DNA of 64,000 bases, from the NCBI GenBank assembly GCA_031763025.1, contig JASSKH010000040.1, forward strand, positions 1,377,001-1,441,000, read 5' to 3'. This document shows, one piece after another, positions 24,413-44,156 of the stretch (positions are counted from its first letter, which is position 1; the number at the start of each line of letters is the position of its first letter). Source of the DNA: Macrocystis pyrifera (lineage: Eukaryota > Sar > Phaeophyceae > Laminariales > Laminariaceae). Under the pieces are notes generated by a model. That model searched no databases and had not been told where the DNA came from. It saw only the letters and a list, made by a program, of their open reading frames with translations. The position numbers and the translations under genes are program-made.

Positions 24413-26795
24413 GGACACCTCATCCTTCGCATCCAACTGATGGGTGATGGTAGTTGAGTACAAGTTGTGGATTTTGTACGTATTGTGGAAAAGCTACACG
24501 CAGTATTGGCGTTGCGGTTATAGGCCCTTTCGGCCTCCGATGGATGGTATGATAATGTTTGTGGGAGGTGATGATGTACTCCCTACAATTATGAGGGGTA
24601 TGGCATGGTATCGGCGAAGAGTATGCTTGGGTGTTCCAATGGTCAGCCTTCACGGTATTTCAGAGCTGTTCTCAAGTTGGAACCATGTTGTTTTCCCCAC
24701 CAAACGACCGCGCGAACCTTCAAAATCCTAGTCGACCGCGCCCGATGTCATCGGACGGCGACTCGACAGTTGGTGCGATGATGTCGACGAACGGAGAGAG
24801 GAGTAACCTCACGCTGTGATAAATACGCCAAGCACGGGCTGTAGGCAGGCAGTAGACCGCAATGACCGGGGGGGTGGGGGAAGACGACTTTCGCTCGCTC
24901 TTTCCACTAAGACTCATAACTTGACACCTTTGCGGAGTGTCACATTCTTGATAGTGGTCTTATCGAGGTATATGTAAGAGGTGCAGACTGCCTATCTCTG
25001 TAAGGTGTATCAGGTATACTCAGCTGGTCAATTCGTGATCAAGATATATATTTGCGTGTTTTATCAGCTATCCAGGTGTTTGCTACAACGCAAATTCCAC
25101 GTAGGCACAGCATGCGAAGGGTGGATGAAGACGTGGAAGAGCAGTGCACGTTGGACGACACGTAGCTGTGCATGGGCACGGCAAAATGAAAAATAGAGAA
25201 ACGGGCGATTCGGTTCGATCTAAGAGTCATCCACTCGTATACTACAGCAGTTGTCTACTCGTTCATGCGCCGTTCCTCAAACGTGACTTTACCCCGGCAG
25301 GGTATCACAGTGTCGCCAGTCTGCTTGCTCGTCAAGACTATTTTCTCGTTGTATTCCCTGGCAGTGGATTACCGTGGAGACGCCCTCTTCCCATTGTCTC
25401 AGGAAACACAACATTGCAAGTCAAGACCATGGATCCGAAAGATGGTGATCCGCCCCTTTCAACAGTATTTTTAGGTCCTGTTTCGGTTCGATTTGTAGGA
25501 TAGGAGTCCGCTCGGCCGTTGTTGGCTGGGCTGCCAATTGACGGATCCCAAAGCGGCAGTCCTCCTCCAGCTATCTTGACATCATCCCTGGGGTTTGTCA
25601 CCTGGTCCAACAATGTTTCGGGGAGGATTACTTTAAAGTAATTTTTCTGCAGTAGAACGAGGTCGAAACATAATCAACTTCCCGCAGTTTTTGTCAGTAC
25701 CCTGCTAACGAGGAGTAGAAGCGGCCGATCGTAACACGTGAAACACGGTAATATCGAGCGTATTCGTAACGTGCGAGACGAAGTTTTGCTATAATAAAGT
25801 GCAGTACAGTTCGTGGAATCAAAATCACTCCGCAGGTAACCGATCAGACCACCACCTAACCGCCAAAAGAATACTCGGATATTTTTTCCATCATGTTTCA
25901 TGTCACACTGCGATACAATTATTCTTTGTACGCGTAGGAAACAACGGAATACCCCAATTACTTGCGTCAAAATCTCTCTACACTCGTACACTCCACAACC
26001 CACTCGACACTTACACACCTCCAGGAGCTCGTCTCCTCGTCCTCTCGCGAATGTTTCTTCATACCAGGTTTACAGTAGTTCGATTGAGCGATGTAGACAA
26101 CTTGCGTTTTGGGGCGAGATTGCCACTGAACGTTTATCGTCTGCAGAGCGTACGGTATCCGCGCCGAACCAGTCAGCGCCAAGGACTACATACTTGCACT
26201 ATTAATACTACTGCTGTCCAAGTGTATCTGTAAGAATTTGCGCTATGCGTTGTTGGTGGGGGCAGTTTCGAATACATTATCGCGCAAAAACTGATTGATC
26301 AGGTGTGATCTTGTTGTACAAATGAGATGTTTCCGTATGTTACGGGGACAGCAACTACGATACCGACGCTCATAGACGGTAGCACCACACAGAAACCTGA
26401 GGCTATGCGCTCTCGAACAAGCGAGGTTTTGCCCCTGGGCAGGGTTTGGACGTGCATGCGATCGGGAACGAGTGCTTCAAGAAAGAAACAGGAAATATCT
26501 TGGATCTTGGTCGTGAAACGGCTGTGCAACAACCCCGTTACAATCACGCAATTGACATGGAACCCTTGACGCAAGATCTCTCATCATAAGACAAGAAGCA
26601 GATTCAAAATCCACGCTGTACCAAGGGTAGGCAAAAAAAAAATCCTGGACCCACACTCCATCTTTTTCATTTTCGGCCCGCCAGAGCGGGGGGAGGGGGC
26701 AATTCTCCTGGTATACTAAATCTATACATTACAAGTCACTTGATGATACACTACGCAATCCGGCAGTCTAGGCCACGTGAATAGCGCAGACTAGC
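24413..26795. other. intergenic DNA, no gene seen
   Basis: The longest frames (25144-25503 plus, 25338-25613 minus) have no recognised motif. The stretch contains one A10 run at 26635 and several TACCAGGT words. The 5' LTR of the gypsy element should lie here or just downstream, but no copy of the 3'-flanking repeat was found. Confidence 0.4.
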
Positions 26796-27175
26796 CCATG
26801 ACGCTTCTCCCACCACCGTCTCATGGCCGAGACCGGCCGCGTACCAGCTCCGCTGCAAACGGCGGTCACGCGCCGCCCTCCAGGAGCCCCCCCTTCCCTT
26901 ACTCGGGACCGGATGCTGGACACCACCCCACCTCCTCCAGCGGACACCGGGGAGCTGGCGACAGCTCTGTGGCCGGAGACCGCTCTCGCTGCCGCGCTGG
27001 CGACCAGGCCCGCCAGCGCCCGAGGGTTGGAGGGGATTCGGCCGGTCCGGACGGCAGGTTCCGCCGGGACTCGGGCGGGGAAACGGGTGGCAGTTCGTCT
27101 CGGCGCAACGGGGCTGGACGGCGAAGAAACCGGGGGGAAGGGGAAGGAGCGATCGGGTGACGGCCGGTACGTATG

Positions 27176-27597
27176 TACATTATTGTCATTTTTCGCAACA
27201 TGCCGGGGCATGCCGTGGCACCACCTGCGGCGAAACCTTCCACGGCATCTTCCACGGCATACCACGGAACCTTCCACGGACCTCCACGGCATACCATGGG
27301 ACCCTAACCCTAACCCTAACCCTATCCCTAACCCTAACCCTAACCCCAACCCCAACCTAGGTGTCGTGGACATTGGGGTGCCGTGGGGGTTGCCATGATA
27401 TGCCGTGGGATTGCCATGGAGTGCCGTGGCGGTAGCCGCGGGGGTTGCCATGGTACTACCCATGGCATGTCATGGCAACCCCCACGGCGTGCCATGGAAT
27501 CTTATGCCACACCATGGGATGCCGTGGTGATGCCATGGTATGCCATGGGCGGTACCATGGCAATGCCACGACATGCCCATGACAAGGTCAAATAGTG
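27176..27597. mobile_element. CCATGGCA-array element, copy 2, with telomere-like core, inserted in gag
   Basis: The left half is C-rich (CCACGGCA units) and the right half is its approximate inverse (TGCCGTGGGG units). Between them lies a CCCTAA array (27303-27358). The right end reads TAGTGTAGAACCCTG, the inverse of the left end of the 19-kb copy; the left end (TACATTATTGTCATTTTTCGC) resembles the left end of the 41.7-kb copy. Gag-like sequence resumes directly after it. No target duplication was identified. Confidence 0.7.
27303..27358. repeat. interstitial telomere-like (CCCTAA)n
   Basis: There are about nine tandem CCCTAA units with variants CCCTAT and CCCCAA at the edges. The TTAGGG type is widespread among eukaryotes, including brown algae. 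Its place in the exact centre of a foldback element argues that it is part of that element and not a chromosome end. Confidence 0.9.
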
Positions 27598-27599
27598 TA

Positions 27600-28617
27600 G
27601 AACCCTGGATGGCAGCCATGAAGGCCTTAGTTCTACTAATTGGATCCCCGGTTGGCAGTACCCTCTCAAGAAATCCTTCGCGCGCGCCATCACGCCTGAC
27701 AAGCCTACGACCGCCCCTCTCACTACCTTGATGGATGATTTTTTTGGACAGGTGTCGCGCGCCCTCGCAGCAGGATCGACGGGACCGGAGGTGTTCACGC
27801 TCCTCCTGAGGTTGCTGAGCAACCACTTCGACCGCACCAACACGGGGGCCAGCCACACCAAGTTGCATAATTTTGGCGTGGCTAACGGGACCCCATTTTG
27901 CGATTTTAGTCGTGCATTGCGAGGGGTGGTGTCCGCAGCGACGGGGACTGAGCGTGTTTTGGCACCGTGGGTGAGGTTGTTTTGGAGGTAGTTCGGATAG
28001 CACTGAACGAGCAGTACCCTAGCTTGATGCCGACGCTGTACCCGGGAGTTTTGGCTACGGTATCGATGCCGTTCGGCACTTTGGACGCCATGTGGTTAGC
28101 TTTCGAGAGTCTTGCGAATAATAAGACACCTGCCGTCAACGGCGAAAAATATTTTTCTGTGCCTGCTTCTTCGACGGGTGCGCGGTCATCAGCCCCGTCG
28201 GGGCCCCGGCCCGCCAATATTGGTCGCGGCCAGGGCCGGACGTTTCCCCAGTCGCCTTCTTGGCAGACGGGATCGCGCAATAATCCGCTTGTGATCAATG
28301 TCCACAAATCCATCCCTGACTGCCTCGACCCGTGGCTTGACACCTCTTCCAACCACTGGCCCCTTGAAGAACACCACTATGCCGAAGTTCACGCCGTTTG
28401 CATGTCCATCCAGACCGAGGACCCTCCCCTTTGGAGCGGCCTACTTTCATCGTCCGCTCGCGCAGCCGCCCTCAGCGAAAACCGAGGACGCTGTTTAAAC
28501 TGTCACGAAGACACACACTCTCTTCGACAGTGTAGACACCCCTTTCTAAACCTTAGTGGTATCTTAAACCCCGACCTCGGAACGCTCGGCGACGACGGCG
28601 AGGCGTTCCGTCGATAG
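27600..28617 (+). pseudogene. gag-like polyprotein segment with CCHC zinc knuckle
   Basis: A capsid-like region reads in one frame from about 27655 (SFARAITPDKPTTAPLTTL, MMDDFFGQVSRALAAGSTG, FSRALRGVVSAATGTERVL) and after a frameshift near 27965 in another (VVLEVVRIALNEQYPSLMP, NNKTPAVNGEKYFSVP). It ends in a retroviral-type knuckle CLNCHEDTHSLRQC (C-x2-C-x4-H-x4-C) about 40 residues before the stop at 28617. The N-terminal part is separated by the inserted CCATGGCA element. Function inferred from the family: RNA-binding structural protein of the element. Confidence 0.75.
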
Positions 28618-29940
28618 CAAGAACGCATGATCAGACACCGCCGCGAGCACAATTCACGACCGAACAAACACAACCAGAAGAAACACACGCGTCGTCCCGG
28701 CCACTCGCGTGGGCAACATCACGGCCAGGGTCAGCAAAACAGACAAGGTGACGGCTACAACACACACGGCACGAGGACACCCGCAGTTTCACTCCGGTCA
28801 TCATGGTGGTGGTTCGACCGCCCCTACCTCTTCCGTCCCGGTTCCCATCTCGGGGGTTCGCTACGGTGCCTCGCATACCTCGGGCGGAAACCCGAATGGA
28901 CGCCAGCCAGGCACCTTCCGCGCCGGTAACTGACAGGTCGACGGCGGTTCGGCTCCTCCTGCCCGCCCGCCGCCAGCATTGTCGGGAGAAAAAACATTGA
29001 TTTCACAAGATGCTCGCGTCCCAGGCTCGCTCAGTACTCCGCTCCCGCCCCGCGCGTTACTCCGTACTTCGGACCGACGCAGCGACTCAGCTCCACTGCT
29101 TTCTCCGGGGAGCCCCAGGGCGCCTTCCCCGAAGTCGGGAGCCCGCGCCTCAAACGCCGCTCCCCTCAACCTGCGCACGGGAGCAGGCGCGATAAACGCC
29201 TCTCTCCCAAACCACGCACCGCGCAACGTGACGGGTGTCGCGCCGTCGCGTCGTTTTTTTTCAGCGAGGGTGCCCCCCTCCTACACCTCCTGGCCATGCG
29301 GTAGCGGTCGGTTTGAGGTGCGGGAAGGCAAACACCGAAACCCCGAGATCTCGAGTGAAGCTCGACTCGGCGTTTCCTCGCAATAACGGTGGCCGCTCCA
29401 CCCTTTTTCCTATTAAGGAGGAGTCGACAAGATTAGCTACCTCGTCCCCCTTCCCCACCAGGTCTACAGGACGGAAGCCCTCTCCGGTGGACCCTTTGTT
29501 GCCCCCCACCCGAGCACCGTTCTTGAAGACGTCTACAGGGTCTGCAGGCCCTCTTCCGTCTTCGCGCACGCCACTCCACGTGCGCAGCGCTCCTTCGGCT
29601 CCAGTGGAACAGGAAAAGCCTGGCACTGTCCGTCGAGCCAGTGGTGACTCCACGGCCTCCGGTCAGATCAACCGGACAGCATCCCCGTTGAATTCGGAAG
29701 AATCGCAGCTCTCGTCAAGCAGAACGGGCTCAGAGCCCCCTGCCCCCTTTGGTCCAGAACAGAGATCATCGGGCGCAGCAAGAGAACCCTCTGGCGATTT
29801 TTTGCCCACGGGCAATGGTGACACAGAGCCAGTATACGTGGAACCGGACTCGTCTCGTACACCAGGGGCTCAGTGTTCTCAGAGAAGCACACTCCCCCCC
29901 CGACCCGCCGCAACTGCGGCCACCGACGACTCGGCACCGT
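28618..29940 (+). other. retrotransposon low-complexity region between gag and the NADAR domain
   Basis: The sequence is GC-rich with Ser/Pro/Arg/Thr-rich frames (one open frame from 29235 reaches the NADAR domain). No protease motif was found. A first part (28620-28900) is His/Arg-rich. I cannot say whether it encodes an extra gag segment or a protease that has decayed beyond recognition. Confidence 0.5.
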
Positions 29941-29954
29941 CGGTCTTTGACCCT

Positions 29955-30475
29955 ACTCTCGAGTATACAACGGAGCGGGTGGTACTGTTCTGGCAGCCCC
30001 CCTCTTATTTTTCGCAGTGGTCCCCCTCGTGTTTTGTCATCGACGACGTGTCATATTCCTGCGCGGAGCAGTATATGATGGCTGAAAAGGCTCGCCTTTT
30101 TCAGGACCACGGCACAGCGGAGCGGATTATGGCCTCACCAGTCCCATGCGAGCACAAACGCCTCGGTCGAGGCGTGCATAACTTCGACTGCGCTATCTGG
30201 GACCGTGTTCGGGAAGACGAGCGCCGTCCTTGCTGGTAATTTTGCCAAATTCTCGCAGAACCCGGTCATGAAGCAGCACCTATTGAGCACTGGCACCAAA
30301 AATTTGGCTGAAGCCAGCCCTTTTGATGCCGTGTAGGGCATCGGTCTGCGGGCAGACGACCCCGAAGCGCACGACCTCTCTCGGTGGCATGGAAAAAAAT
30401 TGCTCGGTAAAGTTCTTTCCGCCGTTCGCGACACCCTCCGATCAAGTGAGGCCGGGTTGGCACACCCCGCCTCCT
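29955..30475 (+). pseudogene. NADAR (YbiA/DUF1768-type) domain inside a gypsy polyprotein
   Basis: The C-terminal part of the frame 29235-30239 reads VVLFWQPPSYFSQWSPSCF, then YSCAEQYMMAEKARLFQDHG, then KRLGRGVHNFDCAIWDRVRE. After a frameshift at about 30220 the next frame continues with GNFAKFSQNPVMKQHLLSTG, LAEASPFDAV, a stop where the family has Trp (TAG), then GIGLRADDPEA, WHGKKLLGKVLSAVRD. These match in order the NADAR hallmarks: S-x-x-(F/W)-x-P, the (A/V)E-(H/Q)-Y-x-x-x-K-A helix, the K-x-x-G-R-x-V segment, E-A-S-P-x-D-x-x-W-G-I-G-L and W-x-G-x-N-x-L-G-x-x-L-x-x-V-R. The Asn of the last motif is Lys here. NADAR proteins act on N-glycosidic bonds (riboflavin intermediates) and remove ADP-ribose from guanine; any role in a retroelement is inference. 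It sits directly before the reverse transcriptase. Confidence 0.85.
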
Positions 30476-30479
30476 CTCA

Positions 30480-31690
30480 TCAATTCTGCACCTTAACCAG
30501 ACCTCCCCGTACTCGAGCCCGCTGGTGGTCATCCCGAAGAAATCTGGAGGCGTTCGGATCACCGTGAACTACAAAAACTCAACCAGATCAGCAAACTCAG
30601 CCAGCTGCCTATTCCTCGCGTGGACCAAGTCCTCGACTCCCTGGGGAATGGACGGGTGTTTTCCCTCTTCGATTTGGTCTCCTCGTTCCACCAGATTACC
30701 GCGCACAAGGACACCGTCCCTCTTACGGCGTTCTGCACTCCCACGGGCTTTTACGAGTGGCTCGTCATGCCCCAAGGCAGCAGTGCTTCGCCCGGCTGGT
30801 TCGTCAAAGTGATTATGGAAGTCGTTAAAGGCCTGGCACAAGTGGCGGCCTACCTTGATGATGTGATCGTTTTCGACTCTGACCCGACGGCCCACGCGAG
30901 GGCGATACGAGCCCTCTTCGAACGCCTGCGTAAACACAACCTCAAGCTCTCCCTATCGAAGGCTCGCTTCGGCGCCACGGACGCCAATTTTCTGGGTCAC
31001 TCCATTTCGCCCGCGGGTATAAGCCCTAATGCGGAAAAAGTTTCGGCTTTGCTGAAAATGCCCATGCCCAAGAACCTCAAGCAGGTCCGCGCCCTAATGG
31101 GCGGCGTAGGATATTATCGCAAATTCCTGCCCTTCCTGTCTAAACGGATACGTCCTTGCACCGCCCTTCTCCGGAAGGGGGTCAAGTATGTCTTCACGCC
31201 GGCTATGGAAGTTATCGTCCGCCAGATCCTCGCCGAGCTCGCGGCCCCACCGATTTTGGTTTTCCCTGACTGGGATGCCGTAGCCGACGGCTCCCGCCCC
31301 TTCCACGTGTACTGCGACGCCTGCATCGACGGTTTCGATGCCGCGCTCGAACAAGAACAACCGGACGGCTCGGTACGGCCCATTGCTTATATCAGCCGCG
31401 CTACCCTCGATTCCGAAAGGCACTGGACACCGTTGGACCTGGAAGCTGGCAGCATTGTCTGGGCCATCAAACGACTCCGAGGTTACCTGTGGGGCACGAA
31501 GTTTCGAATATTTTCGGACCACAAAGCACTTGAGAGTATTGGCAAAGTAGGAGACCACAACGCACGCGTCCAGCGGTGGCTCGAGGTACTCACCGCGTTC
31601 GGCTACACCCTCGAGTACCGCCAGGGCAGCGCCAACGAAAATGTTGACTTTCTCTCCCGTTTGCCAGAGCCCGCCACAGAACACGACCGC
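30480..31690 (+). pseudogene. gypsy reverse transcriptase and RNase H
   Basis: The reverse transcriptase begins with SSPLVVIPKKSGGVRITVNY, then a one-base shift near 30573 leads into LSQLPIPRVDQVLDSLGNGR, FSLFDLVSSFHQI, PQGSSASPGWF (the usual PxGLxNAP position is altered), the catalytic AAYLDDVIVF, and NFLGHSISPAGI. The RNase H part follows with YCDACIDGFDAAL, LDLEAGSIVWAIKRLRGY, FSDHKALE and NVDFLSRLPEP. The frame stays open to a stop at 32182. All steps of cDNA synthesis would be encoded here in an intact copy. The shift and the altered PxG motif indicate decay. Confidence 0.9.
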
Positions 31691-32797
31691 AGTGGGTCTA
31701 GCTGCCTCAACCCCGTCGAGGACGGTGGTGTCTTCCTCATCCGAGCCTGCGGGCTTCGCACTCGCTCTTCGCCGACCCCTGGTGTCGGTTTGGGTGGGCT
31801 GGTGTCCCGCAGTGAAAATGCCGTCTTGGGTGGGCTACCTCTCGCCTCTTCGGATTTTCGCGATTTTCGCACACACGGGCCACGTATGAGAATTGACGAC
31901 CTCTCTGCTCCTTCGGGGAGATTCGTCGTTCGTGTATCTGCTTCCGTCGCCACCGTCGACCGCCGTCCTAGCTTGGGGTATTTTTCACCCCCCGCCAACG
32001 CCGCTTTCGCTTCTGTTTTTGTCGTACCCTCCGGGGGCGACCCGGGCTCTGCAGAAGCACCCGCTGCAGCGACGATTGTCGCCCAGCGCGCTCCTCCCGC
32101 GGCGAGCACTTTACAGGTCGAAGATTCTGTCGTGAGCATTGCTCCGGCCGCGTCTTCCCTTTCATGCCAGGGCTCTGCATAAGCCCCCGCTGCAGCGACG
32201 ATTGTCGCCCAGCGCGCTCCTCCCCCGACGAGCATTTTACAGGGAAAAGATTCCGCCGTGATCACTGATCCGGCCGCGTCTACCCCATCGCCGCCTGGCA
32301 ACCCGGCGCCTCGGAGCGTTTTGCTGTCTTCAGGCCGCATCTCATCTCGGACGCGCCGACGAACAGCCGCCGCCGCTGGCGCCGTGCCGCCTGCTGTTGA
32401 TTATGGCTTCGGGCCCGGCGGGACCCCTAGACCATCAGCCCGGCGTGCTATCACCCCGCTGCGAGCCCCACGGCCGCGATCGCCCGCACCCGTCGTTTTG
32501 GCCCCGACTCCTGCCGCCTCGTCCGTCCCGACGGTACCCATCCCGTCCGGCCGCGACCGCACCGAGCCCGTGGGAACTCCTCTTTTACGACTTCCGCCGC
32601 CAACTGACGCACCTCCCGTCACCTCGACCGACTTGGATGCCCTCGGCGCAGCTGCCGAGTTTCAGTTCAGTGATTCCGCAGCGCGCTATTCGCACGCCGA
32701 CTGGGCTCGGGAACAACAGACTGAGCCCGCGTGCAACGCCGCCATGCGCTACATAACCCTTGGCCGACCGGAAGTTTTGCCAGACGACTTTTTATAA
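31691..32797 (+). pseudogene. Pro/Ala/Ser-rich linker between RNase H and integrase, with a 42-residue repeat
   Basis: The same frame as the reverse transcriptase continues with one in-frame stop at 32180-32182 and another at 32795-32797. A 126-bp direct repeat (unit starts 32061 and 32187) encodes the segment around PAAATIVAQRAPP. The composition suggests a disordered spacer. No enzyme domain was recognised. Confidence 0.6.
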
Positions 32798-32799
32798 GG

Positions 32800-33745
32800 T
32801 TTCCCTTCCCACCAGCGCCCTCCATTTTTGGAGGTTCAAGAGCTGGCCAACAAAGGCCGCTTGCACACCACCGACGCGGGCATCGTTCTACGTGTCCGAC
32901 AGCCGTCTCCCCCCCCTGCGTTGGATACGCCACGCCCGGTGGGTCGTACGGCCTGCTTATTGAACAACGAACCTATTCGCATTTATGTTCCGCTGCTCAT
33001 GCGCCCCTGTGTCATGCAGGCTTGCCCTTCCACGGCTTCCTGCCACCTAGGAACCGCGCGCACCCTACGTATGCTCGAACGTTTCTACTGGTGGATCGGC
33101 ATGAGCATCTGCACCCGGTGGTGGCTACGCAACTGCTTAAAGTGCCAAGCACGGAAAACGTCGCGGCAGACGGTCCGGTGGCCCTCCATCACGTTGCCCT
33201 TGCCAGAAGGGCCCGGCATCGCCGTCAGCATCGACTATTTCGGCCCCCTCCCGGTGACGCCTCGAGGTAATGCCTACATCTTGCTTTTCACTGATCGTTT
33301 CAGCCGCCGAGCTGACATGTACGCCGTCACAGCGGCCGAGTTCACCGCTGAGGGCACGGCTATCATTCTCATCAACCGGTATATCCCTCTTTGGGGGTGC
33401 CCGCGCAGCGTCCTCTCGGACATCGGCCTCCAGTTCTGCTCCAAGCTTTCGCACGCCGTATACCAGCTTCTCGGGGTTCGAAAAATTGCCACCAGCTCCT
33501 ACCACCCAAACGGCAACGGTGGGGTGGAACGTGTGAACCACACGATGGCCCAGATGTTGGCAATGGTCGTCAACGAGCTCCAAAACAACTGGGATGAATA
33601 GCTCCCTCACGTCGAATTTGCGTACAACAATTCCGTCAGTGCCGCCACGGGTCTGGCTCCCAACGAGGTACATATGGGTCGGCTCCCACGCCTCCCACTG
33701 ACGATTTTCGAACGTGCTGGAGTCGCCGGCCACCAGAGCTTGGCC
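32800..33745 (+). pseudogene. gypsy integrase
   Basis: In the same frame after the stop at 32797: a zinc-binding region ends in LRNCLKCQARKTSR. The DDE core has AVSIDYFGPLPV (first Asp), SVLSDIGLQFCSKL (second Asp) and GGVERVNHTMAQM (Glu). An in-frame TAG at 33599-33601 interrupts WDE-LPHVEFAYNNS, after which the frame continues to about 33740 (ATGLAPNEVHMGRLPRLPL). The catalytic residues are all present, so the stops are the visible damage. Confidence 0.88.
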
Positions 33746-34888
33746 TGCGCGACCACCTCGCCTACTGCGACTTGGCGACGGACCGCCAGCAGCGCGCGTA
33801 CGATATCGTTCGAGAACACCACGCCCTCACTGTCACTCGCGTGAACCGCCGCAACTCCGCCCTCTCCGACGCTCTGCGTCCGGTCCCCAAATTTAACGTT
33901 GGTGGTCGGGTGTGGGTGTACAATACGGCGGCCACCATCCGCCAGGGCGCGAAACCAGACACGGACGCCAAAGTCCTCAAGGCCAAACTCTCCCTCAACT
34001 GGACGGGCCCCTACAAAGTTCTCGCAGTTGGCCCCTGCCCCTCAGCGGACACCCCGGATGGATCTCCTCTCGGAGCAAAGCTCCTGTATTTGGATCTTCC
34101 TTCCGATATGCCCGGCGCTGAGGCTTGCCGGCGCGTATCTGTTCAACGCTGCAAGCCCTGTGCCAACCCCCACGACCGTGGCGACATGCCGAAGTATTTG
34201 CCGGCGGGATTCACACAGTACGTGCTCAACAATTTCTCCAAGAAATCCCCTCCGTACCACGTCACCGAGGACGACGTTTCGACCCCTCTTGAACGACCCG
34301 AAGTGGAAAATATTACTGGACATCAATCGGTTAGAGGTCGAGGTGGCGTCATCGCGGTGATGTCCGAGACGCACTGGAAGGGACTATCCCGGCCATCTTG
34401 GGAACGGGAAATGGACCTTCAGCTTTCTCGCCACGCAATTTTGCGCTGCTGGACCGGCACCCCGAACCAACACCGCCAAACCAACCGCCTGTACCGCCGA
34501 ATGAGAATTGGCGCGGCACAACGGGAGCTTTCTCGGAGTAACGGCGAGCGGCCTGGCACCCGGCTATGGTTGCGTATCGCACGCCGATTGGCTCCGGCGA
34601 TACAGCAACGCTGTACTTCCCAACGGGACCCACTTTTGGTACAAGGGCGACGACGGTCTGTGGTGGCTCGGGAAAATCAGCGCAACTACACCGATGGATG
34701 GAGTATATTTGGTTCGATTTCTGAACGACCCGGGACCAATCAAGCTCCCTCTTTCTCCGGCGCGCTACACGACTTCGACGAGAGCTCTACGAGGTTCTTG
34801 TTGTCTGAAAATTCACTTGGCTAGCGCGTTTACACGGGGGGTCCAGCGTAACGTAGACGAATCTCGAGGTGCCGCCGTGGATAGCTGA
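33746..34888 (+). pseudogene. post-integrase region: chromodomain-like and SH3/Tudor-like segments
   Basis: After a frameshift near 33745 the frame 33772-34500 reads DLATDRQQRAYDIVREHHAL, FNVGGRVWVYN, LNWTGPYKVLAVGP (the usual integrase C-terminal SH3-type fold), then a chromodomain-like stretch VRGRGGVIAV, ETHWKGLSRPSWEREMDL, ILRCW (W-x-G-x-x-x-x-x-W-E-x-E core). The other frame from 34508 then gives DWLRRYSNAVLPNGTHFWYK, DGLWWLGKIS, DGVYLVRFLNDPGPIKL and a stop at 34888. The last part resembles a small SH3/Tudor-like barrel that could read chromatin; this identification is by pattern only. Chromodomains in gypsy elements (chromoviruses) direct integration to marked chromatin. Confidence 0.65.
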
Positions 34889-35333
34889 TTTTCGCTTCTT
34901 GACTGCACTCGATATTTATTTATTTTTTGTCGTCTTCCTGGACCTTGGGGGATGAATTTTTGTCTGCCCGATATGTTTCTGGTGTGTTTTCCTTTTTTGG
35001 GGGCTGGGTTGGGCATGTGTTTTTGCGTATTCTGTCCTGCCTACCCCCCCCGCCCAGTGTCGGGACTGGTCTGGGCACTCGGCCGCTCAATTGCGGCCCA
35101 GGGCGCGCTTTCAGAGTTGTGGACTGGGTTTAGGTGGTTCTTGCCGTCTTCCGTGTATTTTTTTCTTTTCGTTCCCGTACTCACTTTTCGCTTTTCCGGG
35201 CACTTCCTCGCCTCCCCCCCCCGTGCGGGCGGCATGGCGATGGCTTTCATCGACGATTTCTTCCTGCCCCTTAAGGTTAGGTCTTCCCTTTAATTTTTCA
35301 CGTAGTTTGCCGGTTTCGTTGCCTCGCCGTTCA

Positions 35334-35470
35334 GAGGTGTGGGAGTGGGTTTTGATGAGCCGCATCTTCGACTCATGTTCTAGTTCGTGGAATCGGGGTT
35401 TCCACGAATTTCCCATAATTCTGCATATACGGCTCATCAGAGTGGGCTAGTGGAATGATACTGCTTTGTA
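35334..35470. repeat. terminal repeat of the gypsy element or LTR fragment (see 11322)
   Basis: GTGTGGGAGTGGGTTTTGAT begins a block that contains a hairpin (GATGAGCCGCAT with ATACGGCTCATC) and is shared in part with 11322-11480. It follows about 450 bp of non-coding, pyrimidine-rich sequence after the last frame of the element. Confidence 0.45.
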
Positions 35471-35789
35471 TGAAATTGAAAACCCGGTAACTACCTGGGT
35501 TCAGTCACTGGGAACGTATTTGTAGTACTTCGAAGGCGTATCTTAGATGGAAAACCAGGGGTTTTCCAGAGGCGCACGAGCTTGTTCTCAGTCTCCGCGT
35601 GCACGAAAGGAATAAAACTGCTCTTCTTCTATAGCTAAGCAAGCAACACACGTGAGCACCCGACTTGAAAGGCAGACCTGTCCAGGGATACAAAGTGTCC
35701 CGCATGCTTGATCTTAACAGATACCATACTTTTGTACCTAACACCACACGAGCGAGTGTAGATACCATACTGCTGTTCCACCAACACCA

Positions 35790-36870
35790 CACAAATAAAC
35801 CCCGCTGTAAAAAATAGTTGGAAATGCTGTTGTTGCGGAACTATCAAGAAACCCGCTGTAGAAAATACGTCGGAAATGCTGTTGTTGCAAGACACCATAC
35901 TGCTGTTGTACCAACACCACACGAGAACGAGTATAAATACTCGTACCACATTGAGTACTAAGCTTTGCCTTTCGTATGATAGTGTATGATATATGGTTTA
36001 GGACTTGCCGTCGCCATCGACGCGGGTTTCGCGCAAGGTTAGGAGAGACATCAATAAAACATTAACATCACCGAGGGGTTCAAGACCTTTTCTTCTGGGG
36101 ATAATTTATGCACCGCTCGCTTAGTGATTAGTTCGCTGTTATGCTCGTATCCCCGTCAGGTAATACTGCGACTGAAACTATTGCTGTCACAGGGTCCTCT
36201 AGTCAGGGGTGGAACTACCTGGTACTGCTCTTTTTTTTACTTTTCGTGTGTGAGCTGAAACCTTCTTGTTTTTTTTTTTTGTGTTGGAACATACGTCAAT
36301 CTAGGTCATATTTAGTTATTTTTTCTGTGTCAGTTGAAGCCAAATAGCGTGATTTTCGCCTCTGGCGGCACCTTCAACGGGATCCTCCGGAGGCGCTCGT
36401 CTGGCTTTCGTGGGCTAGTCATTAGCCATGAAATGCTACTGACTCACAGCCCTAATTGTTGCGGACTCAGCTGCTTGTTGGATCCCCCTCCTCATGGACT
36501 CTTATATTTCGCGGTCCAGAGGTCACTTGTCAGTTTTTCGCTTACTTTGTAGTAAGCCAGGCAGTCAGAATGAACAGTAGCACAGCAGGGGTGACCCTCT
36601 ACCACACACCGTGTTTCGCATGTTTTTCATTGCACAACAGATGCCGCAGCCGCTGTATCAACTTCAAGACAAGAAGTACTTCGCTTCTAAGCTGCGATGC
36701 TCTGTGTGGTACAGACATCTTCTGTCTATTCGTGTGTCGATTACTTACTTTATAACCATCGTGCGTACAACAAGCCCAATATCGAGAAACCCCGCTGTAG
36801 AAATAGTCGGAGATGCTGTTGTTGCGGAACTATCAAGAAACCCCGCTGTAGAAAATACTCATCTGGGTTA
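35790..36870. repeat. short dispersed units (CCCCGCTGTAGAAAATA family)
   Basis: Unit CCCGCTGTA(G/A)AAAATA..TCGGAAATGCTGTTGTTGCGGAACTATCAAG occurs twice in tandem at about 35802-35892 and, with a second tandem pair, at about 36786-36867. Related sequence (GAAAATACGTGGGAAATGCTG and GACTCTTATATTTCGCGGT) occurs at 14.3 kb and at 36.49-36.55 kb. It is probably a miniature element family; ends and target duplications were not determined. Confidence 0.6.
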
Positions 36871-37000
36871 ATGTCAATTACATGTCGACTTCGTCCAACT
36901 CATCCGCCCACGATACGCCCCCCCCCATGAAACCCTCGACCTCAAAACTGATCATGAAGCAGAAATGTTGCAGGATGTTAAATGCCCTTTACGAACCAAG

Positions 37001-37240
37001 ATGAATATCCCATATCCTCGCACGGTACGACCACAAGTACTACCGATAGCCAGCACGCAGACGCTCAGTCTGAGCCAAACCCCGCCTGCCTGCCTGCTGG
37101 GGTGCCGTCTATGCCGGTGCCGACCGGTCTGTCTCGTCACTCTCACCAACTCCGACTTCACAAAATTAAAAGACAAGGGAACTGAGAACAGCGCTCGAAT
37201 GCATTTCATCGAGAGCAATAACAATAATAGTAGTGTACTT
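37001..37240. repeat. dispersed repeat, copy B
   Basis: This is a direct copy of 17750-18000 with small indels; the CCTGCCTGCCTGCTGGGG stretch is expanded relative to copy A. Confidence 0.75.
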
Positions 37241-37795
37241 CAAGTAGACCGATCTCTGACGTTTCCTCAAGCGATGGTCAAACCGATAGGAACCGTATTC
37301 AGCACGGTTGTACGGTACTACTTCTGTTCTAAAAAATGAAATATACAAAATGGCAACGTTTCTGCTGCTGCGTGCTCACTGCCTTTTCAAAACGGTGCCC
37401 TACTTCCGATCCCATTTCGGCGCGCGGGCACACATCCTTTCTCGGCGCCGCAAAAGGATCCTACTGCAAACTATGGATTGTTCGTGTATTCCAAACATTG
37501 TCTGGCGACACATGTCAACCAACGATTTTCCACCAAGAAAAGATTCTATCCTGAAAAATTGACCAACAATAAGAACACTGCGGGTACGAAATGTCTTTCT
37601 CTCAGTACCAGCTAGGACAGGGGCAACTACCTCCAGCTGAAAGAGGCGAATGTCATGAATATGTGTGACCTCTCAAATGCACTATCCCGGGAAATACATT
37701 GGCTCAGTCGTTCGACTTAACATCGTTGTAGGTTAAAACCATCACGAGCGCAAACGGGGTATGGTTGGTTGATTGACTAAAAAGTACCTCCTCAC

Positions 37796-40700
37796 CCCTG
37801 TCTTAGTTAACGAGATCGTGCTCCCATTTAACAGATGAATGTCTCGAGTGAAGCCCGACAGCGCCTCGATCACCGATATATTCAATTCAGCCCGCAGATC
37901 AGCGCCATCCCGAACGAAGTGCTCGTGGGGGTTCACCTTAGCCACAACCTGCGAATAGGGCGTTGCCATGTTGTCCTAGTCGGGTGTGTGTACAGAATGT
38001 GCAGTACCGGGTACTACGCGGTTGACGTACGCAATGGTCCGCAGCAGGGAAAACACGCTTTGCAGTCAATAAAAACCCTCCCCTCGCCCGAGTGAAAATG
38101 CCGTAGAATTTACATTAGCATGATATCACGTGGCCGTAAAGCCCGTGACTGGTAATCACTATATTGTATATGGTACGTACCTTGTACATGCTTTGAATAT
38201 CTACCTTATATTAGCGCAGAGTCCGAAATCTTGCCGGACAGTCAGGCCTTTAGCGTCAACAGAGTCCTTCTGCAGATGTACTGTAACCATGTACCCTTGT
38301 ATATACCTGGCACCTACTCAACGGGCTCGAAAATTGTGGACACGGTCGGAGAGATTTATTCCTCTACGATTTCTATTGAAAACTAATCGCGCGCGTTTCC
38401 AATCTATCATGATCGTCAACGAGCGGGATAACTTCCGTGCTCTGCAGGGGCACCTTAGTCCATCTACCACCTTTGCCGAGGACTTACCTCCACGTTTCCT
38501 GTCGTTTTGCCGGGAAACTGCGATCCGGTTCCCGAAAAATGTAGCGTGTGTGAATCAGGCGCGCCTCGTGGAATATGTATCTCAAGTGAAGCGCGCTCGT
38601 GAACGACGCGATCGCCTTTGCACCTATCGGGACGGCACGAATTTCCAGCATTCGTGCGCACGTTTACATTGCAGAGCTGTACGTAAGAAAATGAGTCACA
38701 ATGTGATAGGCGCGGGCGAGGGGGCACGAAGGAAGAAAAAATCATACTACGTAGAGCTTCGATTTCTGTTTTGAACTGACGAGGATCAATCCTGGGGCGG
38801 ATTCGGGTGTACCCGGACGGGTTCATGATGGCTTGTTTACAACGGGTAGTTCGCAGCTTGATTCGATTCGCTGCTTTGACGACGGCACGGCTCCGCCTAG
38901 GCGTATATCGGTGGAGACAACCGCCCGATACTACCACCATGGAAACGAATCCGGTAATCCCCTGTAGCTCGAACCTACCCCAGCTTAGTCAACCCATTGT
39001 CTTGCCTGGGACACTCGCTTCCTTTCTTCGGTACCTCTCCAAACCCATGGCAGCGAGAGCAAGTCGTCCTCAGAGTCTGCTTCACCTCGTGGCTGTGGTC
39101 ATGGCTAACTGTTGAGGTACCTGGCTCCGCCGACGCGCTGTATCCAAAGAATGGGGCGTGTGTAGACATTCGTACGATCATTATTTTGAGTGTTTCGTTC
39201 GCTTGAACTTAATTTATCTCGACTGACACTGCGCCCAACACCAACACACAAACACAAAGGAATAGGAGCGTAATTTGACGTTCAGCACAACACACAACGG
39301 ATCGAGGCGAAGTTTGTGACACCTATGATAGGCCAGGGCGGGTAGAATCACCATGTAATCACGGCCGCGACAAGCAAGCTCAAAAATGGTCTTAACATCC
39401 CCCCGCCTCATTCATACCTGCAAGTTTTACACGGACGCATCTCGCTTTCAGGGGCACCCTTGCCGTTGCAAAGCGTACAGCGCACCCCCCTCTCGAAAAA
39501 TATCGTCTCCGTCAGACCTGAAGGACAGCCGCACATAAGTTCCAGAATTGGTACAGGATGGTGCTGAGTTTTCCCTTTTTGTCCGGTATATATATTTTCC
39601 CAGCCCAGTGAAAGACTCAAGGGAGGGGTGTTGGTAGCTCTGTCGCGCAGCCTTGCCACCAAGCTTACCTGTCAAAACGTGCGAGAGCTCGTAGGTCACT
39701 TGCAGATGTATCGTCGGTACCTCACCCCCTGGTAGGCCTGGCGTCCCGAAAGCCACATCAATTTCCCCATCCCGGAAAGCGCAAGTCAGGTCAAACGCAT
39801 CCCTAGCTGGGTGGAGACTCTCTGCTTCAGTCAGCGGCAGCTGGTTTCGAGGTCTGGCATTGAACCTGAACGGCGACCATTCAGCAATACCGTGTTGTGC
39901 AGTTAGTGTCATACGAAGTATGTACGTCACGAGCAACTCTGAATGTAATGAAGCGCGGGTACAACGCGCTGGAGAACGTATATTCGAAGGGAGTACCGGA
40001 ACAGGGATACCCCTGAAAGAGTCACAATACGAGTTTCGGAATGTAGTCACCCTGATATAAACCAAGGGGCTGGCAGGTCAACGTGAGCGTTTGCGCGAGC
40101 GGCCGTTCCCGGCACGTCCTTGGCTGGTAGCTTCAAACCTTACTAGACTATTATACTACACCGTAATATGAATATCATGCAGTAACATTGCATGTGCCAT
40201 AATATGAATAATATGCGGTACCTTTATGCGTAGGTGTTTCCTGTGCACAGTAGTGGCAGCCGCCGCTAAACCAACCTGTTGGGACGTCCGCCGGCGTGTG
40301 AAAACATCACAATTTCCTGCTGCTTTTCCAGGATCTCCTCCAACATCCTGTGCCCTGTTTCGTTGCGGATGACTAGAACCGGAATGTCGACCTTTTGGAT
40401 CGACGGGAGAGAAAATACTGGCGATAGCGAGAATCGCTTACCGACGGCCCTTGGCAACGGAGGAAACGGTGGGAGCTGAGAGCCGGAAACGAGCAGACGA
40501 CGGCCGGGGATGGGCGCTAGGCGCGTTACAATAAAAACTAAACGTATGAGGTGTGCGACTCGTCGTGATCAGTGAAACTACTATCATAGAGGTCCGTCGC
40601 CAAGCTCTTTGTACAGGGCGTATTGAAGGAAGCTTTCTTGATGTATCTCTTGAGTCCACCGGGTGCACACCTGCAGCTGCCACAGCGATCGCAAGCTTTA

Positions 40701-43525
40701 TTCACTTTTCAGTGCTTTGTAAGTATGTTAATGTAAGGAAGGCGAGCGTTTGTCAAACCCTTCGATATCGCCGATCGTACGTACAGTAGTGGGGTGAGTT
40801 ACCGTGCCCTGGTCGGCTGCTATATGCCGGCACCTCCCGCGTGAACCGAATATGTCAGGGGTGGGTATGACACCTCGGTGGCAACCACGCTTTGCGCAAA
40901 CACAGTACGAGTACGTACACAATTCCTGTGTACAGAGAAGCATCTCACCTGACCGTCTAGTATGTACAACACCTTCGCGCCCCGTTTAGCCGCGTTTCGG
41001 GCTTTAACGTGCGGCAGACATCCCCCCCTGAAAAGGATAGGTACGAAAAGTCGTGTTGGAGTCATACATGATGCCTTACATGTTTAGGAGATCGTTGGCA
41101 TGATTCTGACTATCAACACTGCAGCTCTACTTTTTTAAGCCCAGCCACTTGCATTGATCGATAGTCAGCAATCGCGAGGGTAGGCGTCTCGACCTTTGGG
41201 CACAGACGCGTACCTGGAGACAAGTAGTGCGTGTCCGCTGGCGTTGAGCGATGGTTCGTCCGCGCAGTGCTCCAGTGGCTGGGCAACCATCAAGGGAAAA
41301 GCAAAGTCGACGCCAGCTGTGGCGAAAGTAGGAAGGTCACTCCCTAATGCTGCCTGTGTGCATTCGAGAGCATGCACTTCTTCGGTGTCTCCCTCTATCG
41401 TGGCGTAGCAGGATACTGCCTTTGGTTGCGAGCCAGCTCCTTCCACTCGCAACACGTCACTGTCGTAGAGTTGAGGTTCGGGCGTTGCCTCGGCCCGTCG
41501 CCGTACCTTGATATTAACCCGACCTTGTGTCTCCAGCAAACGCTGTATTTTTTCTAGGGACCACTGACGAATTTCGACGCCTGCCACGGCCGTGACGACA
41601 TCTCCCGCCCGCAGCAACAGGGAAGCAGCGCTCTCGGGTACCACCCTGAGTTGACACGACGAAGGCCAAATACACCCGGGATGCACATTATTGGCAGTGT
41701 TTTTGTGGCAGTGCCGCGGCATGCGGCAACCCACGTTCATGTCCACGGCATGCCACGACATGCTGCAGCATGTCGCTGCAGTCCACGACATTTTCTATGG
41801 CATACCGCCGAACGACTGCCGCGGCAGCCCCTACGGCAAGCGCCACGAACCCTCATGCCAAGTCACGGCAAGCAAGCCTCACGGTAAAGAGTAAGACCTA
41901 CGGCAAGGCCGACGGCGGGAATGTTCACGGAAAGACTCGCGGCAATACTCATGGCAAGGCCCACGGCAAGGCTCGTGACAAAGCCTTCGGCAAGGACCGT
42001 GACACGGCCCGCGGCAATGTCCACGGCAAGCGCTACGGTAACACCCGCTGCAAGCGCAACGGCAACACCCGCAGCAAGTCCCACGGCAATTCCCACGGCA
42101 ATTCCCACGGCAAGCCCTACGGCAAGCCCCACGGCAAGCCCCACGGCAACCCCGACGTCAACACCCGCAGCAGGCCCCACGGCAACACCCACGGCAACAC
42201 TCGCGGCAAGGCCGGCGGCAATATCCACGGTAAGGCCCACCGAAATCTACACGGAGGTCTCAACACCTGAAACTACGCTGTGGGGGAGTGGAGTCAGTCC
42301 CGGGTGGGACCAGCGCTAGGTGGGATCAGGGGACCGGGTGGGCTTCTTGTGGGGGAGTGGGATCAGTCCCGGGTGGAATCAGCGCTGGGTGGGATCTGCG
42401 GAGGGCTATTCATATGTCTGCACCTTGTGGGCGGGGACAGGTCCGGGTGGGATCAGAAGGCCAAGGGTCTTGCCGTGGGTGGGCCTTGTCGCAGGCATTA
42501 CCGCGGGCTTCCCGCAGATATTGCCGCGGGCATTGCCGTGGACATTGCCACGGGATTTGCCGCGGGCTTTGCCGTGGGCTTTGCCGCGGACCTTGCCACA
42601 GGCCTTGCCGTGGGGCTTGCCGTGGGGCTTGCCGCTGGGCTTACCGTGGGGCTTGCCGTGGGATTCGCCGTGGGCCTTGCCGCGGGTTTTCGCGTAGCAT
42701 TCCCGCCGCAGGCCTTGCCGTGGGTCTTGTTATGGGTCTTGCCGTGGGGTTTTGCCGTGGACATGGCCACGAGGCTTGCTGTGGGATGCCATAGCAAGTA
42801 CCACGGCAATATCCGCGGGCACACAACGGTGGCGCGTGCCACGGCAGCTCCAATACCGGTGGTATTCCATGGGCCTTGCCGTGGCATGCCGGGGCATGCC
42901 ACCAAAAACTCAAATGCCGTGCATCCGTGAAGGTGTAAAACGCAGTGCGTATTACAATGCTATGTGTGTGATGGCAAAATCCTGTCAATTCCGGCGACAT
43001 GACAGCGCCCGTATCCGTATGTGAGCCTACCTTTCGACAACAGCACCCCGCCCTCTTGTCTCGCTGACAAGATGGACTCCGAGACCGGTAGTGCCCCTGC
43101 TGACAGAGGAAAGCGTATGCAAACAGCCGTGCGAGGTCGTACATGGCGCAGTCGAGACGACACACAATATACGTACGTACAGTAGTGCTGCTGTAGGTAC
43201 GCACAGGGTATTTTGAACACGTGGGTTGAATCGTGCACGCTCCGTTCACTGCAATGACATTTCAGGCTACTGTAGTACCGTACATCGTACGTCTGTAGTA
43301 TGATTACCTACATAGATTCTACCCCGATACCAGAGGGACGAGAGACGGTATTATAAATCAGTCTGGGTACCAGTTCGTGGTCTGTTCCACAAAAGACATC
43401 TACAGTCAATATACAAAACAGTACTAGTACCTGGTCAATGCGATATCCACCTCGGAATCCTGAATGTTTTTGTCGTGGGCAGCGCAAAGGTAAGCCAGGG
43501 AAACAGCTGCGAAGAAGCGCCACAT
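37796..43525 (-). CDS. secretory PDZ-PA-DnaJ-type (J-less) protein, ten exons
   Basis: Exons on the minus strand: 43525-43431, 43096-43031, 41645-41214, 41027-40949, 40391-40276, 39865-39669, 39517-39418, 39137-39006, 38623-38488, 37948-37796. All nine joins agree in phase; borders are GT-AG except one GC donor after 39006. The model has 502 residues so far; the last exon may read on to a stop at 37742. Residues 1-15 are a signal peptide (MWRFFAAVSLAYLCA). Residues about 34-105 form a PDZ domain (TGLGVHLV, VVPESAASLLLRAGDVVTAV). Residues about 165-255 form a PA domain (FAFPLMVAQPLEHC, RGGCLPHVKARNAAKRGAKV, VDIPVLVIRNETG). From about 310 a DnaJ substrate-binding part follows: four CxxC motifs (CTLCNGKG, CKTC, CSRCHGFG, CPRCKGD), then LEIHIPRGAPDS, HFVRDGADLRAELNIS, EALSGF. 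No J domain or HPD motif was found. An ER or secretory-lumen substrate-binding role is inferred. The intron from 43030 to 41646 is filled by a giant inverted repeat. Confidence 0.85.
38130..38460. other. intron of the PDZ-PA-DnaJ gene, no other gene seen
   Basis: The plus-strand open frame 38130-38774 overlaps exon 9 of the minus-strand gene and has no motif of its own, so it is not annotated. Confidence 0.6.
41655..42935. mobile_element. CCACGGCA-array foldback element, copy 3 (1.27 kb)
   Basis: The left arm (41660-42265) is an array of CACGGCAA.CC units; the right arm (42480-42925) is the inverse (TTGCCGTGGG units). A spacer of about 210 bp (42275-42480) contains two GGGTGGGATCAG-type repeats (GGGGGAGTGG.GTCAGTCCCGGGTGG.A.CAGCGCT twice). 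The ends match as inverted repeats: left GGGATGCACATTATTGGCAG then TTTTTGTGGCA, right TGCCACCAAAAACTC then GCCGTGCATCC. It lies entirely within an intron of the minus-strand PDZ-PA-DnaJ gene. Long open frames across the arms are composition artefacts. Confidence 0.8.
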
Positions 43526-44156
43526 GTACGCCAAGGGCCAAGGAACGTGTTCGGGTCACTTAGAATATTGTGATTCGTCCCCAACCCCTGCACGCACGGC
43601 CATCAAACTGAGTTACCAATCTACCGGGTGGTCGCGATAAGATCGCACGGATCCGCCCGTTATTTTGTTGTGGTCTGATATCCTATTTTTATTTCCAAAA
43701 AAGTACGGCCACAAATAATTTTTATTTCAACCATTTACGGTTAAATAATAACCTGATTGGTACCAGGTACATGACTTTAAGCTGAGTGGTACCTACCGTA
43801 GATCGAACGCTAAGCACTGCCACTGTGCTTGTGTTGCAGGGTGTCTTCCATCTACAGTTGTAGTACTGTTGTTGCTGTACTGCTATACTGTACTCTGCTG
43901 TACTATGTCTTGGTATTTGGTACTCGTCTCTCGTCTCTCATCTCGCATCTCGTACTACAGATCTATCTACGTACAGATGGTATGGTCCGCTTCTGCCTTA
44001 TTCCGGTTCAATTTTCCGTTTCGTAAATTTGACAGTCCCGCCGTCCCGTCCGCTCACCGACTCGCCGGATGTCTCATGACTACTGCTGTAGATTGTCACG
44101 CACCACACACTCCTCATACCAAAACTTTTGGACGGAATTCCTCGCGGGTCGGCTCT
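43526..44156. promoter_or_regulatory. divergent intergenic region, likely shared promoter
   Basis: The start codons of the PDZ-PA-DnaJ gene (43525, minus) and the EGF/PDI-like gene (44157, plus) are only 631 bp apart and diverge. The interval has no competing gene, an AT-rich stretch near 43680-43760 and a run of TACTG/TACTCT words. Co-regulation of two secretory-pathway fold-assisting proteins is plausible but not shown. Exact transcription starts cannot be seen. Confidence 0.45.

Follow-up and report, generated by a model that had tools for sequence, protein, structure and literature searches.

Introduction

The J domain, which links Hsp40 to Hsp70, is a trait treated as defining the Hsp40 family. 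In type-A members (the DNAJA proteins, such as Ydj1 and DNAJA2) four CxxC zinc motifs are inserted in the first C-terminal domain (CTD I), which is followed by CTD II, and the C-terminal region of known Hsp40s makes dimers. The type-A-like J-proteins of the endoplasmic reticulum (ER), Scj1 and ERdj3, combine a leader and an Hsp40 substrate-binding half with a J domain, and recruit BiP. Here, a gene is described from a 64,000-nucleotide stretch of the genome of the brown alga Macrocystis pyrifera (GenBank assembly GCA_031763025.1, contig JASSKH010000040.1, positions 1,377,001 to 1,441,000; referred to below as the window), the predicted product of which shares the zinc motifs and both CTDs with the type-A proteins, and a leader and a probable secretory placement with Scj1 and ERdj3, but lacks the J domain and its HPD motif. 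In their place, and in that of the G/F region, it has a PDZ domain and a PA domain.

DnaJ zinc fingers without a J domain are a plastid theme in PMC5818400, in which ZnJ2/BSD2 and PSA2 appear as plastid proteins comprising the cysteine-rich centre only, and ZnJ2 as a holdase that prevents aggregation with no cooperation with DnaK, indicating that an Hsp70-independent mode exists. The Macrocystis protein resembles these in having the zinc finger without the J domain, but adds both CTDs, PDZ, PA and a leader, and is not therefore a zinc-finger-only chaperone. Its PA core (RGGC...NA...GA, IPV and a conserved cysteine pair) is that of secretory proteins such as vacuolar sorting receptors, RMR proteins and subtilases, but is joined to PDZ and Hsp40 parts, with no protease, EGF, RING or presenilin part found in a Pfam scan. 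A sequence from Ectocarpus siliculosus, deposited as 'Heat shock protein 40 like protein' (P0001, 606 aa), is an ortholog with the same domain order, for which no paper was found. Similarly, no paper on a PDZ-PA-J-less Hsp40 architecture was found among 5.39 million open-licence papers, judged mostly from titles and the openings of abstracts, in agreement with an earlier note on this DNA, made from the sequence alone, which knew of no characterised protein with this order.

Results and discussion

The window carries, on its minus strand, one open reading frame over 11 exons (gene span 43525-25338; Table 1), with a product of 617 residues in which a leader, PDZ, PA, zinc finger/CTD I and CTD II follow one another, an order that the earlier note had proposed and that holds also in the long orthologs. 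On balance, we favour the reading that this nuclear brown-algal gene encodes a secretory-pathway protein that derives from a type-A Hsp40, lacks the J domain and has a holdase/escort or adaptor role. A GLGF-type loop and the PDZ profile (37.8 bits; Pfam cut-off 23.2) place the protein among PDZ proteins, and CTD I and CTD II of a type-A Hsp40 are both present (DnaJ_C, 66.0 bits; cut-off 26.6). Of the four profile searches that the earlier note proposed for the spliced product, those with PDZ and DnaJ_C thus exceeded the Pfam cut-offs, and those with PA and DnaJ_CXXCXGXG fell below them, as weighed later. Family searches of the genome with DnaJ_C (0/9 matches on the contig of the window, C130), DnaJ_CXXCXGXG (0/10) and PA (0/12) do not list the gene, probably because its domains are divided among exons; it is recovered in the protein search.

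The absence of a J domain was examined at the level of the whole assembly (537,376,219 bases, 223 contigs). The J-domain profile PF00226 gave 55 genome matches at E<=1, none of them on C130, all 62 first-look candidates of this search having been scored. Since matches of merely 18-21 profile positions were detected, a split J domain had a fair chance of detection, and a hidden J exon, the discovery of which the earlier note had regarded as fatal to its proposal, was rejected for want of a match on the contig. The HPD motif is absent from the window protein and from P0001-P0004, and Pfam scans at E<=0.1 gave no match to a J family, so that the J-less description applies to the window protein and the long orthologs alike. 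When the genome was searched with P0001, 13 matches were obtained at E<=10; eight lie in the window and correspond to exons 3 to 10 (exon 4 with an E of only 0.056). The only convincing match among the other five (C191:7720145; E 3.2e-6) is to another type-A-like DnaJ gene, and no second copy of the gene was found in the assembly.

This other gene (C191, about 7720145-7723660, minus strand) has zinc motifs and CTDs, and showed no J domain by tblastn over 29 kb, nor nearby in the genome-wide J search; it may represent another Hsp40 without a J domain, or its J exon may lie further away. It falls beside the family in the tree (90/74), a position that could be a long-branch artefact and is not relied upon.

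The best PDB matches to the window protein, by sequence and by fold, are Hsp40s of the DNAJA/Ydj1 type. CTD I and CTD II were predicted with high confidence in a structure model built from an alignment with 36 DnaJ rows, the J domains of which pair by chance with the N-terminal half; a first prediction (mean pLDDT 40.6) was discarded. In the tree, the CTD groups with DNAJA/Ydj1 and apart from the prokaryote/organelle-type clade, and the bacterial DnaJ models of NCBIfam match this half with scores well short of their cut-offs (TIGR02349, 114.4 bits; cut-off 377.2). Judged from the tree and the model, the substrate-binding half is of the eukaryotic (DNAJA/Ydj1-like) form. All eight zinc-binding cysteines are present and the client groove is mostly hydrophobic, which together argue for client binding.

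The quality of the CTD half as a type-A Hsp40 would also suit an ER co-chaperone subunit that cooperates with BiP through a mixed dimer, the J domain being lent by a partner J-protein. Indeed, the match of the predicted model to DNAJA2 extends to residue 602, near the C-terminal dimer region of known Hsp40s, and the genome holds many J-domain exons. However, no partner can be named and the tail after CTD II differs among the orthologs, and we regard such a subunit as rather unlikely.

The ten minus-strand exons described in the earlier note were all found to be present and open, with compatible phases and with the PDZ, PA, four CxxC and DnaJ C-terminal motifs at the places claimed. The exons, joins and motifs of that description are therefore retained, but parts of its gene model were missing at exon 5 and at the 3' end. 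An exon 5 start at 40391, inferred from the earlier total of 502 residues, omits 28 residues (LPPFPPLP...) that are restored by a start at 40475, and the orthologs carry a PPLPPLPS-like segment matching the extension. Additionally, P0001, P0003 and P0004 continue for ~70-90 residues past the end of the 502-residue product, and their tails match positions 25601-25338 on the same strand by tblastn (P0003, E 8.7e-13; P0004, 3.9e-10; P0001, 2.8e-07). The eleventh exon recognised there has an AG acceptor, a fitting phase and a TAG stop; it takes the protein to 617 residues and rules out the shorter product. A start of exon 8 at 39092 was replaced by 39137 on ortholog comparison, and exons 8 and 9 are separated by an intron of the GC-AG type. 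The least secure part of the gene model is exon 1, in which 11 of the 31 residues aligned with Ectocarpus are identical and for which tblastn gives an E of 1.5.

With the ten-exon model the best database match was P0001 (E 2.7e-155), and the alignment of the full model to this protein runs from one end to the other (317/596 aligned residues identical). The next matches were two EukProt proteins (P0002 and P0003), a partial protein of Scytosiphon promiscuus (P0004), one of Pylaiella littoralis (P0005) and four Logan fragments. P0001-P0004 match PDZ, PA and DnaJ_C in the order seen in the window protein, although P0002-P0004 score below the Pfam cut-off for PA, and P0004 also below that for PDZ. 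A division into separate PDZ-PA and DnaJ genes, which the earlier note had considered, is not favoured since P0001-P0004 join both halves and the exon phases fit. P0005 (307 aa) stands against this, as it comprises the N-terminal half only, beginning within the PDZ domain and stopping just short of the zinc finger; it may be a cut-short model rather than a split gene. The P0003 model is without zinc motifs 1 and 2, around residue 365-390, probably through an exon missed in annotation. The P0002 model ends where exon 10 would be read through, and its last exon has perhaps been missed also.

Among the best 120 of 554 protein matches in the full-length search, nine belong to this PDZ-PA-Hsp40 family and the others are of DnaJ type. 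The 23 proteins found with an N-terminal profile all align with the family, the four found with P0001 residues 28-345 all belong to it, and no distant relative outside the brown algae was seen among these three sets. In each search, scoring was confined to the 7995 candidates with most words in common, and distant relatives may be missed; within that limit, the domain order was seen in this family only in the protein collection.

Several features bear on the cellular location. A short hydrophobic N-terminal stretch is present in the window protein and in P0001, P0002 and P0003. Four cysteines outside the zinc finger (133, 149, 181 and 201) and the sequon N262-x-T264 are kept in 10/10 rows of the alignment, and a second sequon, N520-G-S/T, in all five rows that cover the site. 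Only 3 of 36 other DnaJ rows have N at the latter position, and DNAJA2 has LDGR where the family has LNGS/T. From the leader, the conserved sequons and the conserved extra cysteines, we infer that the protein enters the ER. Brown-algal plastid proteins also begin with a signal peptide, and a bipartite leader could accordingly direct the protein to the complex plastid, there to serve, like ZnJ2/BSD2 or PSA2, as an assembly chaperone without a J domain. However, the likely cleavage sites (by eye, between VAVA and EDT in P0002 and between IAAA and EDT in P0003) are not followed by the aromatic residue expected in an ASAFAP motif. Given also the conserved sequons and the separation of the CTD from the prokaryote/organelle-type clade, a plastid role seems very unlikely.

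In the secretory reading preferred here, the leader would take the protein into the ER, where the CTD I groove would bind exposed hydrophobic segments of secretory clients. PDZ and PA would provide docking to C-terminal tails or to other partners, allowing the protein to act as a holdase or escort. Since it lacks a J domain, stimulation of the Hsp70 ATPase by the protein itself is not expected, and hand-over to BiP, if any, would need a separate J-protein. For the domain order and J-less state, which stand, the earlier interpretation of a chaperone-like adaptor that does not itself activate Hsp70 would be the most parsimonious account, even though the gene model beneath it needed completion. 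The holdase/escort role is ranked as most likely, ahead of the mixed-dimer co-chaperone, a scaffold, the plastid role and a damaged gene, in that order. A more specific proposal, for which we would claim only a tentative plausibility, is an Hsp70-independent secretory folding escort of brown algae, in which a lumenal PDZ selects proteins by their C-terminal tails and passes them to, or holds them on, the Hsp40 groove, and PA provides a second dock. If true, this would be a tail-directed chaperone with targeting domains standing in for the J domain.

A number of observations weigh against the preferred reading. The PA profile scores 19.3 bits in the window protein, under the Pfam cut-off of 23.9, a value exceeded by four of nine relatives (P0001, 30.9; P0005, 33.9; P0008, 31.6; P0009, 33.2) and missed by P0002, P0003, P0004, P0006 and P0007 (17.1-20.2). 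The PA part is also poorly predicted (blocks of 28-73 in residues 171-290), and for that reason the absence of any PA structure among the best 50 of each of two structure/sequence match lists is uninformative. As regards lumenal placement, which the conserved sequons and cysteines fit, P0002 and P0003 pass the 19-residue hydropathy cut-off, which the window protein and P0001 miss. Similarly, the number of sequons is not clearly above shuffles in every protein (of 2000 shuffles, the count was reached by 80 for the window protein, 337 for P0001, 716 for P0002, 27 for P0003 and 49 for P0004), and there is no KDEL-like or other ER-retention end. In the zinc finger, motif 2 is without GxG (CKTCSASA), motif 4 reads CKGDR and DnaJ_CXXCXGXG (PF00684) scores 29.0 bits, under its cut-off of 32.7. 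In the groove, the residue corresponding to Ydj1 I116 is I for the window protein but T in P0001, P0002 and P0004, i.e. in three of the four proteins compared.

The changes in motif 2 and at the I116 position, together with the loss of the J domain and the lack of two zinc motifs in the P0003 model, could be taken to indicate a PDZ/PA docking or sorting scaffold of the secretory route or cell wall, in which the Hsp40 part is a structural or dimerising platform that binds no unfolded clients. This we consider unlikely, since neither the zinc cysteines nor the other four groove positions have been lost and CTD I/II are modelled with high confidence.

The type-A client-binding half has thus persisted among diverged brown-algal proteins without a J domain, coupled to two docking domains and apparently secretory. 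The family offers a natural test of what the client-binding half of Hsp40 can do unaided, and a candidate factor, specific to the lineage, in brown-algal secretion or cell-wall construction.

Features in and around the gene

Table 1. Exons of the J-less Hsp40 gene and features of its last intron (window coordinates)
Feature	Position	Strand	Remarks
Exon 1	43431..43525	-	ATG, hydrophobic leader (MWRFFAAVSLAYLCAAH...), start of PDZ strand 1; ortholog starts aligned; least certain exon
Exon 2	43031..43096	-	PDZ, RGTTGLGVHL carboxylate-loop segment
Exon 3	41214..41645	-	Remaining PDZ, linker (conserved Cys133, Cys149), PA start (Cys181); E 2.8e-37 with P0001
Exon 4	40949..41027	-	PA core RGGCLPHVKARNAAKRGAKV (Cys201); weak in genome search with P0001
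Exon 5 (extended from 40391)	40276..40475	-	PPFPPLP segment, IPVLVIRNETG with conserved N-x-T-G sequon
Exon 6	39669..39865	-	Linker, first strand of Hsp40 CTD I
Exon 7	39418..39517	-	CTD I strand, zinc motifs 1 and 2 (CTLCNGKG, CKTC)
Exon 8	39006..39137	-	Zinc motif 3 (CSRCHGFG), first Cys of motif 4; GC donor after
Exon 9	38488..38623	-	Second Cys of zinc motif 4, CTD I (IPRGAPDS)
Exon 10	37796..37948	-	CTD I/II (PHEHFVRDGADL, EALSGFTRDIHLLNGST)
Intron 10	25602..37795	-	12,194 bp
Ty3/gypsy-type retroelement open reading frames	30497..34824	+	Inside intron 10, orientation opposite to gene
Exon 11	25338..25601	-	CTD II end (VKIAGGGLPLWDP ... FGSMVLTCNVVFPE), TAG stop; absent from earlier model

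The retroelement within intron 10 comprises reverse transcriptase/RNase H (30497-32182), integrase (32798-33601) and a further open stretch without a Pfam match (33598-34824); no long terminal repeats of at least 60 bp were found between 25300 and 38000. The great length of this last intron and the reverse transcriptase and integrase frames within it could mean that the gene is broken, the full protein no longer being made in this strain. However, all 11 exons, exon 11 included, are open with usable splice sites, and exon 11 still matches the orthologs, making such damage highly improbable.

Intron 2 (1,385 bp) contains a minisatellite of 12-, 24- and 36-bp units (CACGGCAAG-like) at 41953-42240 and 42481-42760, and a similar motif recurs in intron 10, within 27234-27548. 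A short interstitial array of the hexamer ACCCTA (27301-27357; 9.5 copies) is telomere-repeat-like. Close upstream of the gene, on the opposite strand, an open frame at 44092-44727 (+) includes an EGF-like module, which scores 22.3 bits with the plain EGF profile (cut-off 21.5) and matches a Teneurin-type EGF profile with an E of 1.4e-6, below that profile's own cut-off.
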